A DNA stretch of 64,000 nucleotides from Phanerodontia chrysosporium (lineage: Eukaryota > Basidiomycota > Agaricomycetes > Polyporales > Phanerochaetaceae), in assembly GCA_001910725.1 (NCBI GenBank), contig MJGA01000019.1, positions 558,001 through 622,000 on the forward strand. The letters run 5' to 3'. Position numbers and translations under genes: made by a program. The notes below the pieces were generated by a model, which saw only the letters and a list, made by a program, of their open reading frames with translations, had not been told where the DNA came from and searched no databases. Positions within the stretch are counted from its first letter, which is position 1. The number at the start of each line of letters is the position of its first letter. Shown here one piece after another: positions 27,301 to 34,642 of this stretch.

Positions 27301-27889
27301 GAATAACGCATGATATACCTGAGCATCATCGGAACTCTGTACGGAGGAATGAGAGGACGTAGAATGATAAACAAAGGACGCATACCCAATACTTGTTCCG
27401 AGAGTTGACATTTGATAAGACCCGAACAAAGGCTTGTACACGCTTGGGACTCGCTAGGTATACGTCGTCCTCGAGAAAGGGTTTGATATCGTTATGGACT
27501 TGAACTGGGCTCGCCTTCGCGGCAATTGAAGCATCGTGAACGGTGCCACCGACGTCGCAGAAGAAGTCTACCGGCTTCTCGACGTCTCCGTCCTCTTTCT
27601 GAACGCCAGGTTTTCCTCCGGCGGATACCGTCGGGCCTACCGAATGCTTGAAAGAACACTCGAAGGCACGAGAGCACCTGCCGGTGGTCCAGTACGTATC
27701 GCAGACTCCGAAAGGAAGGCCAGCGGCGATGCGCGAGGTCCTGGAAGTGGTGGAGTTGCCACCTCGCCCGGCGCCTCGGCCTCGTGTCGTAGCGCCGCCG
27801 CGAGCGGAGTGGGAGAATCTGCAGTTGTGACCGTAGCTGCACCGTCCCTGCAAGAAGAATTTGCACGTGCCAGAGGATCTCTCAGCCAT
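21356..27889 (-). CDS. NFX1-type zinc-finger RNA helicase, copy B, lacking the RZ finger
   Basis: This is a tandem paralogue of copy A with the same domain order. It starts at 27889 with one more finger than copy A: CCCH CKFFLQGRCSYGHNCRFSH, then a Gly/Arg-rich linker, then CDTYWTTGRCSRAFECSFKH. The P-loop reads SLIQG / PPGTGK (about 25190-25270). Motif Ia is LISYTNHALDHQ. Motif II is a canonical VVVDEAGQVLEAH (about 23950-24020), where copy A has VEEAG. The NF-X1 Cys-rich array lies at 22300-21950 and the RING-like segment (CGHLFTVEYLD ... CPSCAVPV) at 21690-21450. It then stops at 21356 after ALDNLRLDK, so the helical region and RZ finger of copy A (over 400 residues) are missing. The frame is broken near 25889-25892 (GGGG run), 26219-26230 and 26312-26322, each as one missing base would do. 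It could be a decaying copy or an intact gene with consensus errors; the same error type in essential genes favours the latter. Confidence 0.88.
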
Positions 27890-28429
27890 GTCTAGGGGGG
27901 ACAAAAAGTGTCGTTGGAGGGGGTGGGAGCTGAGAAGAGAGGTGGGTGGGTCGAGATACAAGGTTTGAGTGACCTAAATACCCACCTCGTGGTAAGTGTG
28001 TGTTGCTATTTGCACCTCTCTATCTGAGCCCAGGAGGCTGCCGAATAACAAGGCAGGTGTCAGAAAGCCCCAATTGAGGGATTCAAGCTGACTACTGTAG
28101 ACATACGTTAGGACGGCGGGAAGTGATATCTGTCGCACGCACTGCAAATAGAGACCGACCTTCAGGCCTCCCTTCATCGTCACCCCTCCTACGTGGTTTC
28201 AATTGGCATATTTTGAATGCACGCGCTCCTAACTTGGTTGCTAAAGAAAGTCAAAGGCCGCTGGGGACCCGCTGTGAAATACGTGCATGTGAAGGTGATC
28301 AGGCAAGTGTTTGATAAGATTGGCTTGAAGCTTGGATTCTTGAGATCGTGGGGGTGGATCTTATCTGATCATTTCCGAACCAAGCTGCCCGCTTACATGG
28401 TCGGCGCATTCCATGATTCCGTATTGCGA
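27890..28429. promoter_or_regulatory. Upstream region of helicase copy B
   Basis: These 540 bases lie between the copy B start codon and the target duplication of the DNA transposon. They should contain the copy B promoter. Two small open frames have no recognisable features. Nothing else is seen. Confidence 0.4.
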
Positions 28430-28438
28430 TGCACAGCC
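28430..28438. repeat. Left 9-bp target site duplication
   Basis: TGCACAGCC lies immediately outside the left terminal inverted repeat. The identical TGCACAGCC follows the right terminal repeat at 34634-34642. A 9-bp direct repeat exactly abutting both ends is the expected footprint of a cut-and-paste insertion. Confidence 0.9.
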
Positions 28439-28580
28439 CAGACTCCAGCCACCCGCCCGTGGAGGTTGAAAACCAGCGTCCTCCAGCCTGGCGGCTGATG
28501 AGTCATCGTAATTACTCAAACTCAAAGGACGCTGTAACCTCCACGGGCGACTGGCGGCAAATATATGTAAACAGTCCGGC
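28439..28580 (+). repeat. Left terminal inverted repeat, 142 bp
   Basis: It begins CAGACTCCAGCCACCC and ends CAGTCCGGC; the reverse complement of 34492-34633 matches along the whole length. It contains an internal inverted repeat (CGCCCGTGGAGGTT at 28454-28467 against AACCTCCACGGGCG at 28536-28549, with AGCGTCC / GGACGCT inside), an 11-bp palindrome GATGAGTCATC at 28497-28507, and a TATA-like ATATATGTAA near its inner end. Confidence 0.95.
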
Positions 28581-28717
28581 GCTCGTGTCAGCGGTCCTTA
28601 AAAATAAAGAAATGATGCAGAGATCTACGAAAGAAAATGTACGAGATACTCTGCGAATATTGTGTGAGCGCGCGCCCGTAGGAAGCCGGCACGTTCTTTC
28701 CTCCTCGAAGTTCTCTG

Positions 28718-31447
28718 ATGGCACGTCCGAACGCACCAGCTTCCCAGACAGGAAGTTCTTCAGCAACAGCGGCCAAAGATTATCCTACACTGACCGAAGC
28801 TCGCAAGGAGGTGCAGAGGATATTTGGACAGCGGCTATGCAATTGGCAGTACCTGGTGACGAAGGGTATACTAGAGAAGAAATATGTCTTTGCCAGTGCC
28901 GCAACCGGTATGGGCAAGACTCTGGCATTCATGGCGTCCATCGCGTTCCGGCCCGCGGAAACACTTGTGATCGTCGCACCGCTCAACATCCTAGGGAATC
29001 AAATGGAAGCACTTCTCACTGCGGCGGGAATATCAGCAATTTCAATCAACGGAGACACCGCAACGGAAGCAAATTACCAGGTGAGTGTGCTCCGATTCCA
29101 CAGAAGCTGCATCTGAGATGCTCTTCGCAGAATATGCGGAAGGGACGGTTCAGGGTGGTGATCATCAGCCCTGAACAGGCAATGAAGGAGAGGGGCGGCT
29201 TTCAGAAGCTCCTCGAAGACGCAGAGTTCCGCGCTCGGCTCATTGGTATCGTCTTCTCCGAGGCGCACTGCATCAGCCGTTGGGGTAAGTTCAGGGAGGA
29301 ATACATCGACATAAAGCAACTGCGTCACCAGCTACCGGACACACCTTTTGTGTTCATGTCAGCGACACTAACAGCCGCTGCCATCGAGGACATCAAGAAC
29401 CTCTTCGCCCTCCCGTCAGACAGAATCGTCGAGATTCGGCGCCCGAATGACCGGCCGAACGTCTGTGTCGGAATCCGGCAGATAGCTCATCCAGTCGAGA
29501 GCTGTCTCGATTTGGCGTTTCTCGTGCCGCACAAATGGAAGCCCGGGGACAAGCCTCCCGAGAAGTTTGTCGCCTTCTTCAACAGCATCAATGAGACGGT
29601 TACCGCGGGGAAAATGCTAAGAGAGAGGCTACCATATGCGTACCGTGATAAGATTGTGTGGTTCAATTCACATTGCAGTGACGCGTTCAAGGCGGAGCAA
29701 GTCGAGCGTCTCAAACGCGGGGAAGTCTGGGGTCTCTGCACAACAGACTCATTTGGATTGGTAAGAAGCCATGCATCTTCCAATGGCTATCTGCTAATGA
29801 TGCATGAAAGGGGGTCGACTTACCAGATATCATCCTGATTATTCAGTATCGAATATCAGAATTGGACATCGACACGCTATGGCAGCGGATCGGGCGCGCG
29901 GCGAGGAGTCGTTTGCTGCAGGGAACTGCATTAGTGTTTGTCAAGAAGAAATATTTCAATGAAGTCAAAGAGAAGAAGGCGAAAAATAAGGCCGTCCGAG
30001 AAGAGTGGCTAAAGCGGAAGCAGAAAGGCGACACAAACGAGGGCGTACCAGAACCGAAGCGCCAGAAGCAGCCAACAGCGCTGTTCGCGTCACGGGTGGG
30101 GGACCAACGGCTGTAGGCGAAGGTGAAGCCGATGAAGCCAGCGAGCCAGACGACGAAGAGACCACGGACGAGGACGAATCGGACGAGGACGAATCGGACG
30201 AGGAGGAAGCGGACGTACCTCAGGCGAGCCTAGGGCAAGAGCAGCAGGCTGAGCCACTTAGGGAGGGCTTGGATACGCCTTCTGACGAGCGTTCAGACGA
30301 GGGGGAAGTCGATTTGTCGATGCCAGACGCAGAAATCTTGGAGGAGCGTCGTGCGGTTTACCTCAAAGCCGCCCGCGAACAAATGGTGACCAAGCCTAAG
30401 AAGCAGAAGGGGAAAGCACCAGCAAGAGAGCCGGGGCCAGAGTTATTGGACATGGTGAATGCGGGACGACGAGGGCTGCAGTGTCGTCGCGTTCCCGCGA
30501 AGCTGGCGTTCAATAGCGATAAAGCAGGTGGGTGCAGCTTACCAAATTTGGTATAAGAATCACTGCCGCTCACGCACTGCAGAGCCTGACCCTCACGTCT
30601 GCGACCCCTCCTCACCCGCAGGATGCCCACGCTGCGCTTTCCCCTCTCCCCGAATTTGCTGCGACTTGCATCATCCCTCCCATTTCCAGCAAGCCGCCTT
30701 TCAACCAGCCGCCGACGTCACCATAAAGAAACAACCCCGCTGGTCTGGGATGCCCAAAGGATACCGTCGCCCTCAAAACGCCGGTTTACTCATCGCCGCT
30801 CTCAAGACCTGGCAGGACAACAAGACAGCGGAGGTGTTTGGAGCGGATAGTCGGGACCTGATTGGAGGATGTATGGTCTTGCCGGACGAGGTGCTGGACT
30901 GCATCGTTGATGGTGCGTATGGGGGAATCATCGTCTCCGCGCACGACGTTGTCAAGCAGACCAACTGGACTGACTCGCCGCTCTACAGCGATGAGCTTTC
31001 CGAGCTCATTCGCAGACATGATCCCCTAACGCCCAACAATTCAACGTTATCAGCAGCTGGCCGAGGTAAGTCAATCGTTCCCCTTTCTATATCTCAGCCG
31101 CTAATTCCCTGCTTGAACCCCCAGGTCCTGGTGCAAGCCGCTCGAACGCCGAAGGCAAAGCAAAGGCGAAACCCCCGAAGCCGCGGAAGCCTGCCTCTGG
31201 TGCGCCACCTCAAGGCGAAGGGCCACGCCAGCGCTGCGGGCACTGTCGCATGCCTGGTCATAATAGTAAGTCTCACTTAATTTCGTTGCATATCGGGATT
31301 AAATTTCCCCCAGAACGAGGCTGTCCTGTTCTCAAAGCCGGTGCAACGACATCTCAAGACGAGGACGTTACACCAGTACCTGCCCTGCCGGCCGAAAGCT
31401 CGCCTCAGACCCAGCCTCCCCCACGTCAGCACAACCCTCCTTCGTAA
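28718..31447 (+). CDS. RecQ-like superfamily 2 helicase with C-terminal zinc knuckle (transposon-encoded)
   Basis: The exons are 28718-29080, 29131-29760, 29811-30527, 30583-31065, 31125-31265 and 31314-31447. They sum to 2468 nt, and one missing base in the GGGGG run at 30098-30102 restores a 2469-nt ORF (822 aa). Motif I is ATGMGKTLAF, motif III MSATL, and motif VI QRIGRAARS. Motif II reads SEAHCISRWG, with Ser in place of the catalytic Asp of DEAH (codon TCC). After the helicase core come an acidic run (DEETTDEDESDEDESDEEE), a Cys/His-rich segment (CDPSSPAGCPRC) resembling a RecQ zinc region, and a CCHC zinc knuckle (C-x2-C-x4-H-x4-C, CGHCRMPGH...GC) split by the last intron. Its probable role is DNA unwinding during transposition. 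The altered motif II makes activity doubtful. Confidence 0.85.
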
Positions 31448-31614
31448 CCGTTGAACAGCGCAGCTTCACGGCTGCATCTGCGCATACCGAGGCACCACCT
31501 GCAATGGCTACGCACGCGATCTTGGAGATGTCCGCGTTCTTCGAAGGGTCTCCATTTTCGCGTACGCTAAACGGCTCATCCTCGGGTTGGTCCAACGGGT
31601 AATCTACGGTACGT

Positions 31615-34300
31615 TTACATTCCTATCTCGACGTTGAGGTCGTTTAACTCTGGCGCGACCACAGCATCCTCATCTTCATCCTCCGCCGTACCCGCCCCCT
31701 TACTCTTCATCAACGCCATAAACCCCTTATTCATCATGTTCGGAATAGAATAATGACACCTTCTTCCTGGCTGCGCCTTGTGCAGCTGTGTCTTGTCCAT
31801 GTATCTCTGAAGAGCTTGGTAAGTATGGCTCATATTCGGCTCAGTGTGGTGCGTTGATATGTGATTCAAGACGAGATTCTTCTCTAGGTTGACGTGACAG
31901 CTCTTGTAAACCTCGGTGAGTGTCGACTCCTTCATTATGGCTTCTATAGTCCTGTTAGGGCCCTTCTCGACATGGACCGTCTACGCCAAACGTGAGTACA
32001 CCTTATCTACTAGCCGGTCATCTGCTGAATTACCTTGTTGAACTTATTATAGAACTCGACCACCCAGTCTACGCCTCGAAATTTCCCCGCCTTCCCCGTC
32101 GGGTTGATCAACATGCTGTACCGCACGGCACGACTGCACGGGAGACAGGCGCTTAGCGAGCTAGATGCACACGGAGCAGCACAGCGACGTACCTCAAACC
32201 AGGTTCATAGTAGAAATGTACGTTCGTAATGTGCTTGATGATTTCGGCCGCGTACTTATGTTTTCCAGTTGCCTTGAAGATATACGCCCACGGCTCCATG
32301 CACAATTCAACGCGCCCGATATCGCCAGTGTTAATCGCGTACGTGAGTTCCTCATATAGAAGATATATCTGGTTGATGATGAGGCTGTTTTCTAGTTCGA
32401 AGTCTTGGTTTGCAGTATCTTCAAATCTCATTTCCTCAAGGTCTTTCGGCCGCGCGACGTAATTCATTGCCAGGTACTCCGCCAGACTCATGATGTCCGC
32501 GAGCGTGGGTTCTGACTTCGCCCATGCTTCTAGGCTGGTATGGTTAGCATCTCGCTCACAGACGAGCTCCTTCCAGCAGTCCAGCCGACGACAGATGCCA
32601 TCGTGCTGGATCACCTGGTGTGTGCGTCGGAATCCAATCTGTTTGGATGCAATCTTACCCGTCTCCTTGGGCCGTAGGATCCCGATGTGTGCCATCACTG
32701 ACACTGTGTCTCGATGCGACGCAGCCGGCGCGATGAGGATCCGGTGTGTTGCTTCTCCGGAAGCCATCTTCAAGTGAAATAAGCCGAAGACGTATCTCAC
32801 GAATTGAAGGCGGCGGACAGCGGTGCTCTCGAGGCTCCGAACGTTCTGCGCCCCTGCAATCCGTTCACCGGTCCCGAGGTCGCCATGAAAGAGGATCAGA
32901 TACTCCCGCATATCTTCGATAAGCGTGGGATCCTCGACGTCGTCCGGGTCACCAACTCCTGCCTGCTCGAGTAGCTTCTCCAAAGCCTCAATATTCCCAC
33001 TAACGGTCGAGTTCTCCACATCCATGGTTCGTACAGGGATCGTCTTTGTTTGGACAAGGGGAATCTGCTCGATGGTTTCCGGCGACGGTAAGTCCTTCTT
33101 GAATTTCCGGAAGTATTCTGGCCCTGAGTGCACCAGATCATAGACGAACTTAAGCTTGTTGAAGCGGTCGCGCCAATACATTCCGGAGCTGTCTGGTTTC
33201 CGATGGGAAGGGTGCATGCGAGCAAGATTCTTCCAGTCAGGTACAGGTGCTCGGGGCGTGCGGTCATCCGGAAGGGTGTCGTTCAGCCTTGACTCCTTCC
33301 ACATCTTCTCGGAAATCTGTAAGTGCTCCTTTGTTGTCCCTGGTGGCAGTGGAAAGACCAGGCCTGATGTCAGGTGCTTCAGGGACGTGGCTTGAGAGGC
33401 CTCGCGCGTGAATTTCGTGCTCTTCAAGTCGATATCAATATTATCATAGGCCCATCCAGCGGTGAGTGACTGCCCCAGTGTCACAATTGCCTCGTCAACG
33501 TCCGCGGACAGTGACCGGATAGCCTTGTTCGTCGTGTCAATGGCGGTGCTAATACCGAGGCGTGACAGGACGGCGAAAACCTTCTCTGACGTGTTGCTTG
33601 CATGTGCATGTATGCCGATAACACTCTGGAACGCGTTGGACATCTGATTGACAGTTGTCATCAGGATGCTCAAAATGACGGTGATCCTCTGGTACTCTCC
33701 GGTAAGCTTCTGGCACCTCGATAGGCGTCCATTTACTCACAATCCTTCGAATAGCCTCTCGCCTGTCGTCTATCAGCCGCACTTCGGCGCGCTGCCCTCC
33801 GCAGGGCCTGTCCGTGGCACGAGATCCTGATAGGCCAATCCATCCGCTTCGTTCCCCACCGCGGTCTCTGTAACCATGTCTGGTATCCCGCGCTTTCGCT
33901 TCAATTTCGTGTCACCAGCCCTGACAAGGCCTTCCAATAGCCTTACTAGGTTCGGCGCGAGCTGTTGCATGCGGTCGTGCATTTCCCTGAGCTCGAACTC
34001 CTCGATCTGGGCAACAGTTGCAGTGGACGCGCTGAAATGCCACCCAGCGTCGGCGCCTGCAAGAACGAGCAGCTCTTTCTGGTAAATATCGCTTTGCTTC
34101 TCTGCCACCCATGCCGCTGTCTGAGAATATTGATGCAAGCTTGATAGGAGGTCTTCAGCCCGGGCCACTATTTCGGCGCGAAATCGGCCTGCCGGTGTAT
34201 GATGTGCATGGTTCTGGTCGAGAATATGTAGTATGAGGTCAATAAAGGAGTTAATTTTGTAAAGATCAAGTAGATGCTCTAGGTCTTTATAGAGGGACAT
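31615..34300 (-). CDS. DUF6589-family protein, candidate transposase
   Basis: The exons are 34300-33741, 33688-32193, 32133-32034 and 31980-31615. With one missing base near 33783-33790 they give 2523 nt (840 aa). The N-terminal third is helical (MSLYKDLEHLLDLYKIN). The middle and C-terminal parts show what I recognise as DUF6589 features: a PSPETIEQIPLVQTKTIPVRTMD-like strand region, ILFHGDLGTGERI with conserved Asp/Glu, FGLFHLKMA, and the C-terminal GKAGKFRGVDWVVEFYNKF and HHTEPNMSHTY segments. The conserved acidic residues could be part of an RNase H-like (DDE) active site, but I cannot show this. The gene faces the helicase and is transcribed inward from the right terminal repeat. The family assignment is from memory of conserved motifs; the exon structure is read directly. 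Confidence 0.75.
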
Positions 34301-34491
34301 TTTCGAGGGATGCAGTCGCGACTAGTATCTACAGCACGACGGCGTCGTAGACGGCAACGCGCCTCTGATGCGCCGCCGACCGAATTGGGTATATGTTCCC
34401 GAATAAAATACTCAAAATTCACGAGCATCAAACATCAATTGTGCACGGCTGTCGCCGAACGAGCGACCTCAGATATCCATTGCCGAGGGAT

Positions 34492-34633
34492 GCCGGACTG
34501 TTTACATATATTTGCCGCCAGTCGCCCGTGGAGGTTACAGCGTCCTTTGAGTTTGAGTAATTACGATGACTCATCAGCCGCCAGGCTGGAGGACGCTGGT
34601 TTTCAACCTCCACGGGCGGGTGGCTGGAGTCTG
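34492..34633 (-). repeat. Right terminal inverted repeat, 142 bp
   Basis: This is the exact inverted counterpart of 28439-28580, with the same internal hairpin arms, the same GATGAGTCATC palindrome (about 34565-34575) and the same TATA-like sequence. Its inner edge lies 191 bp upstream of the DUF6589 start codon, so each TIR probably supplies the promoter for the gene beside it. Confidence 0.95.
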
Positions 34634-34642
34634 TGCACAGCC
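34634..34642. repeat. Right 9-bp target site duplication
   Basis: TGCACAGCC follows the right terminal repeat directly and matches 28430-28438. Confidence 0.9.

Follow-up and report, generated by a model that had tools for sequence, protein, structure and literature searches.

The 6195-bp element at positions 28439-34633 of the window, the 64,000-nucleotide stretch of Phanerodontia chrysosporium DNA analysed here, is likely an AcademH-type DNA transposon, in which a DUF6589 protein would be the transposase and a RecQ-like helicase its inherited partner. The features of the element are:

28430-28438: left 9-bp target-site duplication TGCACAGCC, an exact repeat
28439-28580, plus strand: left terminal inverted repeat (TIR), 142 bp, tip CAGACTC, with a palindrome inside (arm comparison and inverted-repeat test)
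28718-30556, plus strand: RecQ-like helicase gene, comprising the helicase core and an acidic stretch (Pfam DEAD/Helicase_C, open frames)
28718-29080, 29131-29760 and 29811-about 30116, plus strand: putative helicase exons, followed by downstream exons with uncertain joins
31070-31447, plus strand: probable exon(s) for the C-terminal part of the helicase, outside the Pfam matches, with a CCHC-like stretch CGHCRMPGHN
31618-34300, minus strand: DUF6589 gene, the predicted transposase (aligned stretches 34300-32189, 32132-about 32013 and 31977-31618)
32153-33736, minus strand: main DUF6589 open frame (527 aa; Pfam PF20231, 243 bits), in which YDN-D and HGD motifs occur
34492-34633, minus strand: right TIR, alike to the left TIR at 142/142 bases (arm comparison)
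34634-34642: right 9-bp target-site duplication TGCACAGCC, an exact repeat

As an earlier note on this DNA had claimed, the two TIRs are identical over all 142 bases when the arms are compared directly (an inverted-repeat search of the window returned 145-nt arms at 99%), and the element is flanked on both sides by an exact 9-bp direct repeat. The claim of a sole, convergent gene pair also holds: a Pfam scan of all six frames of the element (E ≤ 0.01) gave DEAD/Helicase_C on the plus strand, DUF6589 on the minus strand and nothing else. The length of 6195 bp is correct, but it had been assigned to the interior and in fact covers everything from one duplication to the other, the TIRs as well as the interior. 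When the TIR was searched against its own genome, the 39.0-Mb fungal assembly containing the window, 14 matches were obtained; four more copies with a TIR at either end are among them, and every one is flanked by an exact 9-bp duplication of its own. Because the TIR recurs in this way, the structure in the window is not a product of chance. The insertion appears to lie between genes. A search of the genome with its single-copy left flank (501 bp) found no empty site. To the left of the insertion there is also an open frame encoding a CCCH zinc finger (27326-27973).

Four lines of evidence together point to DUF6589 as very probably the transposase: (i) the existence of copies with defined ends, (ii) the coupling of the helicase to DUF6589, (iii) the in-step divergence of the two genes and (iv) purifying selection. 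The earlier note had proposed that DUF6589 is the transposase of a transposon group carrying a helicase, and bounded two-gene copies in four lineages support that proposal. In the whole genome we located 12 copies with both ends, nine of them at DUF6589 places. Their target duplications are exact 9-bp repeats in ten cases, a 9-bp repeat with 8/9 bases alike in one and an exact 8-bp repeat in one. The tips of all 12 fit YAGNCT, a motif that helped to locate the ends of C2, C83 and C102, the ends of the other nine having been located independently of it. DUF6589 identity among the four lineages is 18-24% over the columns compared, with the small fragment C83 left aside.

Window-type TIRs bound five of these copies, namely the window copy, C87 and three short ones, all with exact 9-bp duplications that differ from one another; four TIR matches on C33 are truncated or interrupted and do not enter the numbers of copies given here. 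The C87 copy (14.3 kb) is 78-82% identical to the window copy in the aligned parts and is split by a nested LTR retrotransposon (C87:48192-56293) with 602-bp LTRs at 99.8%, which from a reading of its open frames would be of the Ty3 type. The three short copies (1.4-1.7 kb) have in common with the window copy only 166 bp at the left end and 440 bp at the right end. None of them is listed among the DUF6589 or helicase matches of the genome, and they were therefore presumably moved in trans.

Among the other lineages, two pairs of copies are nearly identical within their ends and differ in their flanks: C124 and C135 (99.2% over 7.7 kb; 9-bp duplications GGGAAGAAC and ATTTTGTGG) and C1 and C113 (99.9% over 6.07 kb; duplications ATCATCCGC and ATGGGGAAG). 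The C83 copy (2.46 kb, duplication GCGGCAAGG) holds the 3' part of DUF6589 only, the C2 copy (14.5 kb) has the duplication AACGAACGC/AACGAACGA, with 8/9 bases alike, and the C102 copy, which represents the fourth lineage, has tips TAGTCT and the exact 8-bp repeat GCATCTCA. Pfam finds DUF6589 43 times in the genome, at 17 places. A scan for exact 9-bp repeats in 11 stretches around other DUF6589 loci (spans above 2.5 kb only) gave nothing convincing, and tip motifs combined with inverted repeats gave C83, the left end of C2 and the inverted repeat in C102. When seven loci were scanned with the tips as anchors, C102 was found, with displaced controls scoring at 0/10 for C102 and 1/70 over all seven; a match at C69 was rejected, since it leaves the DUF6589 gene outside and its tips disagree. 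At eight of the 17 places (C64, C69, C60, C94, C59, C113:1330708, C2:415272 and C73), no ends were found in the 3.6-10.3 kb searched.

The RecQ-like helicase is an inherited partner of DUF6589 and not a chance passenger. A search of the genome with the helicase of C124 gave 15 matches, each with a DUF6589 match no more than 11 kb away; of the 17 DUF6589 places, 15 have a helicase match and two, C73 and the deleted copy C83, do not (these counts are lower bounds, only the best candidates having been scored). At 12 of the 15 places the gene pair is convergent, and at three (C2, C124 and C135) it is divergent. The identity matrices of DUF6589 and helicase correlate at r = 0.94 over 63 pairs (13 loci entered, C2:415272 without helicase values), a value reached in 0/9999 permutations and mostly due to close clusters. 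DUF6589 has a dN/dS of 0.073 between the window and C87 copies, and the helicase one of 0.075; over ten comparisons, seven values fall at 0.063-0.096, one is 0.156 and two are undefined with synonymous sites saturated. Both genes are thus under purifying selection in the measurable pairs, which for DUF6589 come from inside lineage A, the sister group of A, and lineage B.

The association extends to other mushroom species, in which 17 of 36 listed helicase rows stand on a contig of exactly the size of a listed DUF6589 row's contig and 19 do not; equal size serves here as a proxy for a common contig, and on larger contigs adjacency does not follow from it. The 36 rows are those from species that also have a listed DUF6589 row, and the count uses only species-named rows (70/120 and 84/120 of the rows listed, P0200 left out); within it no two different species have equal contig sizes. 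In Agrocybe pediades the two rows share a contig size of 5312 bp, in Trametes cinnabarina the genes are g5 and g7 of one scaffold, and in Paxillus involutus the gene numbers are consecutive.

The assignment of the element to a known group rests on comparison with published transposons. Kojima 2020 is said to be the original description of AcademH, as Academ superfamily DNA transposons with a helicase. In the passages available from two later sources, AcademH elements have a helicase and 9 or 10-bp target duplications (PMC10045372) and are present in fungi including Basidiomycota (PMC10799480). The elements described here resemble AcademH, as portrayed in those passages, in each of these respects and in their low copy number: they have TIRs (142/142 in the window, with inverted tips YAGNCT in the 12 bounded copies), duplications of 9 bp in ten exact cases and one with 8/9 bases, next to one of exactly 8 bp, a RecQ-like DEAD/Helicase_C gene at 15 of 17 DUF6589 places, and basidiomycete hosts. 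Those listed relatives that carry a species name are mushrooms. The element is therefore probably an AcademH member, an assignment made by helicase, duplication length and host range and not by transposase sequence. The concern in the earlier note that the group might already have a name thus appears justified, the name very probably being AcademH. What is new here is the link of DUF6589 to this kind of transposon: in the open-licence literature, with subscription papers and Repbase outside the search, we found no paper linking DUF6589 to AcademH-type transposons and nothing related under the Pfam identifier PF20231.

That same silence of the open-licence papers, none of which was found to name DUF6589, together with an AcademH assignment made on traits other than transposase sequence, would suit a superfamily of its own that resembles AcademH, its DUF6589 not homologous to Academ transposases. 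We consider this improbable, as the helicase and the 9-bp duplications occur together in the right host group, which makes an independent group less likely. Another lineage, KolobokH, likewise has a RecQ helicase and, according to PMC9587614, is reported from no hosts but fungi. Kolobok elements are described there as having TTAA duplications and 5'-RR termini, whereas TTAA is the duplication in 0/12 of our copies, whose duplications are typically of 9 bp and whose tips are CAG or TAG; KolobokH was rejected on these grounds, and we regard it as scarcely credible for this element.

DUF6589 might instead be accessory, with a transposase encoded elsewhere moving the elements through their TIRs. 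Mutator-like elements (MULEs) would be one example of a source, as they too have 9-bp duplications and long TIRs, and at least four MULE matches occur in the genome. However, the MULE domain PF10551 is absent from six frames of the window element (E ≤ 0.01) and from six relatives (E ≤ 10), and the element carries a helicase, on which basis MULE was rejected. The earlier note had named mobilisation by another transposase as a possible refutation, and MULE, KDZ and Plavaka matches, in match lists that are lower bounds, fall inside none of the 12 bounded elements. More generally, neither the six frames of the window element nor the part of the frames scanned from two other lineages yielded any further transposase domain. 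The four lineages differ in their end sequences and each has its own DUF6589 gene, which is under purifying selection where this was measured, and an external transposase is accordingly very unlikely. KDZ (PF18758) and Plavaka (PF18759) are fungal DNA transposons present in the same genome, and both were rejected as identities for the element: neither domain is found in the window element, all 17 KDZ matches listed lie elsewhere, and no listed Plavaka match falls at the 12 bounded places. Genome-wide there are at least 102 Plavaka, 17 KDZ and four MULE transposase domain matches, and several of the Plavaka matches score identically, as recent copies would.

If DUF6589 is the transposase, its conserved residues (numbered as in P0017) are candidates for catalytic positions. 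In-frame stops around 33780-33735 make an intron probable there in the window gene. Across 56 sequences from three lineages, lineage B being represented by one sequence, N281, D464, D619, G645, D646 and Y669 never vary, while conservation is 90% or more at D280, H499 and E651. When 117 sequences are aligned, N281, D619, G645, D646 and Y669 remain invariant, with D280 and D464 at 90% or more. The E651 column is C in lineage B, and D619 and D646 both stay candidates for the third acid. A G-x-x-H motif ends 35 residues past D464 and may correspond to the C/D-x-x-H signature that several superfamilies have between the second and third catalytic acids, according to a passage of PMC9587614. A search with the DUF6589 profile against solved structures matched no transposase, the best hit (E = 0.13) being unrelated and at chance level. 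In a home-made mean-field covariation analysis of the expected strand pairing, 51/356 control blocks scored equally high. DUF6589 would be a DDD/E enzyme, and transposition would be by cut-and-paste. In the C87 copy the D280 column reads N and the DUF6589 frame holds a stop.

In the helicase of the window copy, motifs I and VI read ATGMGKT and QRIGRAAR, and motif II (29257-29268) reads SEAH, compared with DEAH in the closest sibling copy, C87. Given this motif II, the helicase of the window copy may be inactive and the copy itself non-autonomous; neither the window nor the C87 copy looks fully intact. By sequence, the helicase core matches solved structures of RecQ, WRN, RECQ5 and BLM. The transposon helicase is thus like host RecQ helicases in its core and differs from them in the RQC domain, which was found in 0/8 relatives scanned (E ≤ 0.1), some of them matching RecQ_Zn_bind or HRDC weakly and short of the cut-off. 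The sole RQC match in the genome (C80:2369663) lies outside all 15 helicase places.

Inverted repeats are long in lineage A and short or imperfect in the other lineages. The TIRs of the window and C87 copies are 98-99% identical, compared with 54-87% in the other 42 aligned 142-bp windows and a synonymous divergence of about 1; the TIR is therefore either under constraint from end to end or homogenised by conversion. Inside the window TIR is a palindrome with perfect 14-bp arms (TIR positions 16-29 and 98-111), and the TIR folded as a single strand is more stable than shuffled sequences (z = -7.6; 0/200 shuffles equally stable). The same layout is seen at the left end of C1 (arms from position 13) and the right end of C124 (33-bp arms from position 14, 91%). 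Palindromes just inside the ends, a second and apparently new observation, were thus detected at four of six ends tested, both window ends counted (E ≤ 2e-4), and not at the C1 right end or the C124 left end; inside the window element, 2/56 200-bp windows hold an inverted repeat (E ≤ 1e-3). Folding is also better than in shuffles at the C1 left (z = -5.6), C1 right (z = -3.4) and C2 right (z = -3.2) ends, and not at the C124 left (z = +0.4) and right (z = -0.2) ends, the latter folded as a 140-nt piece with part of the far arm cut off. In the short copy C122 the left TIR misses 8 bp of one palindrome arm and the duplication is still exact, so that the palindrome may not be strictly required, unless the 8 bp were lost after the insertion. 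When C124/C135 are compared with C2/C83, pairing of the arms survives one double change (G-C to T-A) and a matched shift by one base; with so few events between these copies, this is no more than suggestive.

In the proposed mechanism, DUF6589 would recognise the ends by the YAGNCT tip and, at many ends, a palindrome 13-16 nt inside, cut there and insert the element at a target opened with a stagger of 9 bp; filling of the gaps would then produce the 9-bp duplication. The RecQ-like helicase would most likely unwind or remodel the ends or repair intermediates. A bolder version, which we think rather unlikely, makes DUF6589 an unrecognised transposase family with a helicase-dependent group of its own, the helicase being obligate rather than accessory and working on the end palindromes as extruded hairpins or palindromic repair intermediates.

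Mushroom genomes contain many DUF6589 proteins (at least 633 and at least 223 matches in separate searches), and nearly all names among the matches listed are 'hypothetical', 'uncharacterized' or 'DUF6589 domain-containing'. The element suggests a role for many of these genes filed as 'unknown'. If DUF6589 proteins are transposases and their RecQ-like neighbours transposon helicases, annotation would be corrected, and readings of RecQ 'expansions' in Agaricomycetes would need correction as well. With exact ends and near-identical copies at hand, the helicase need of a DNA transposon becomes testable. A further observation concerns C33 (about 41640-63820), where a TIR of the window family is interrupted, beside a TAA repeat, by an element with inverted ends CACGACAATAATTTGACAC about 22 kb apart, possibly a large CACTA-like transposon.
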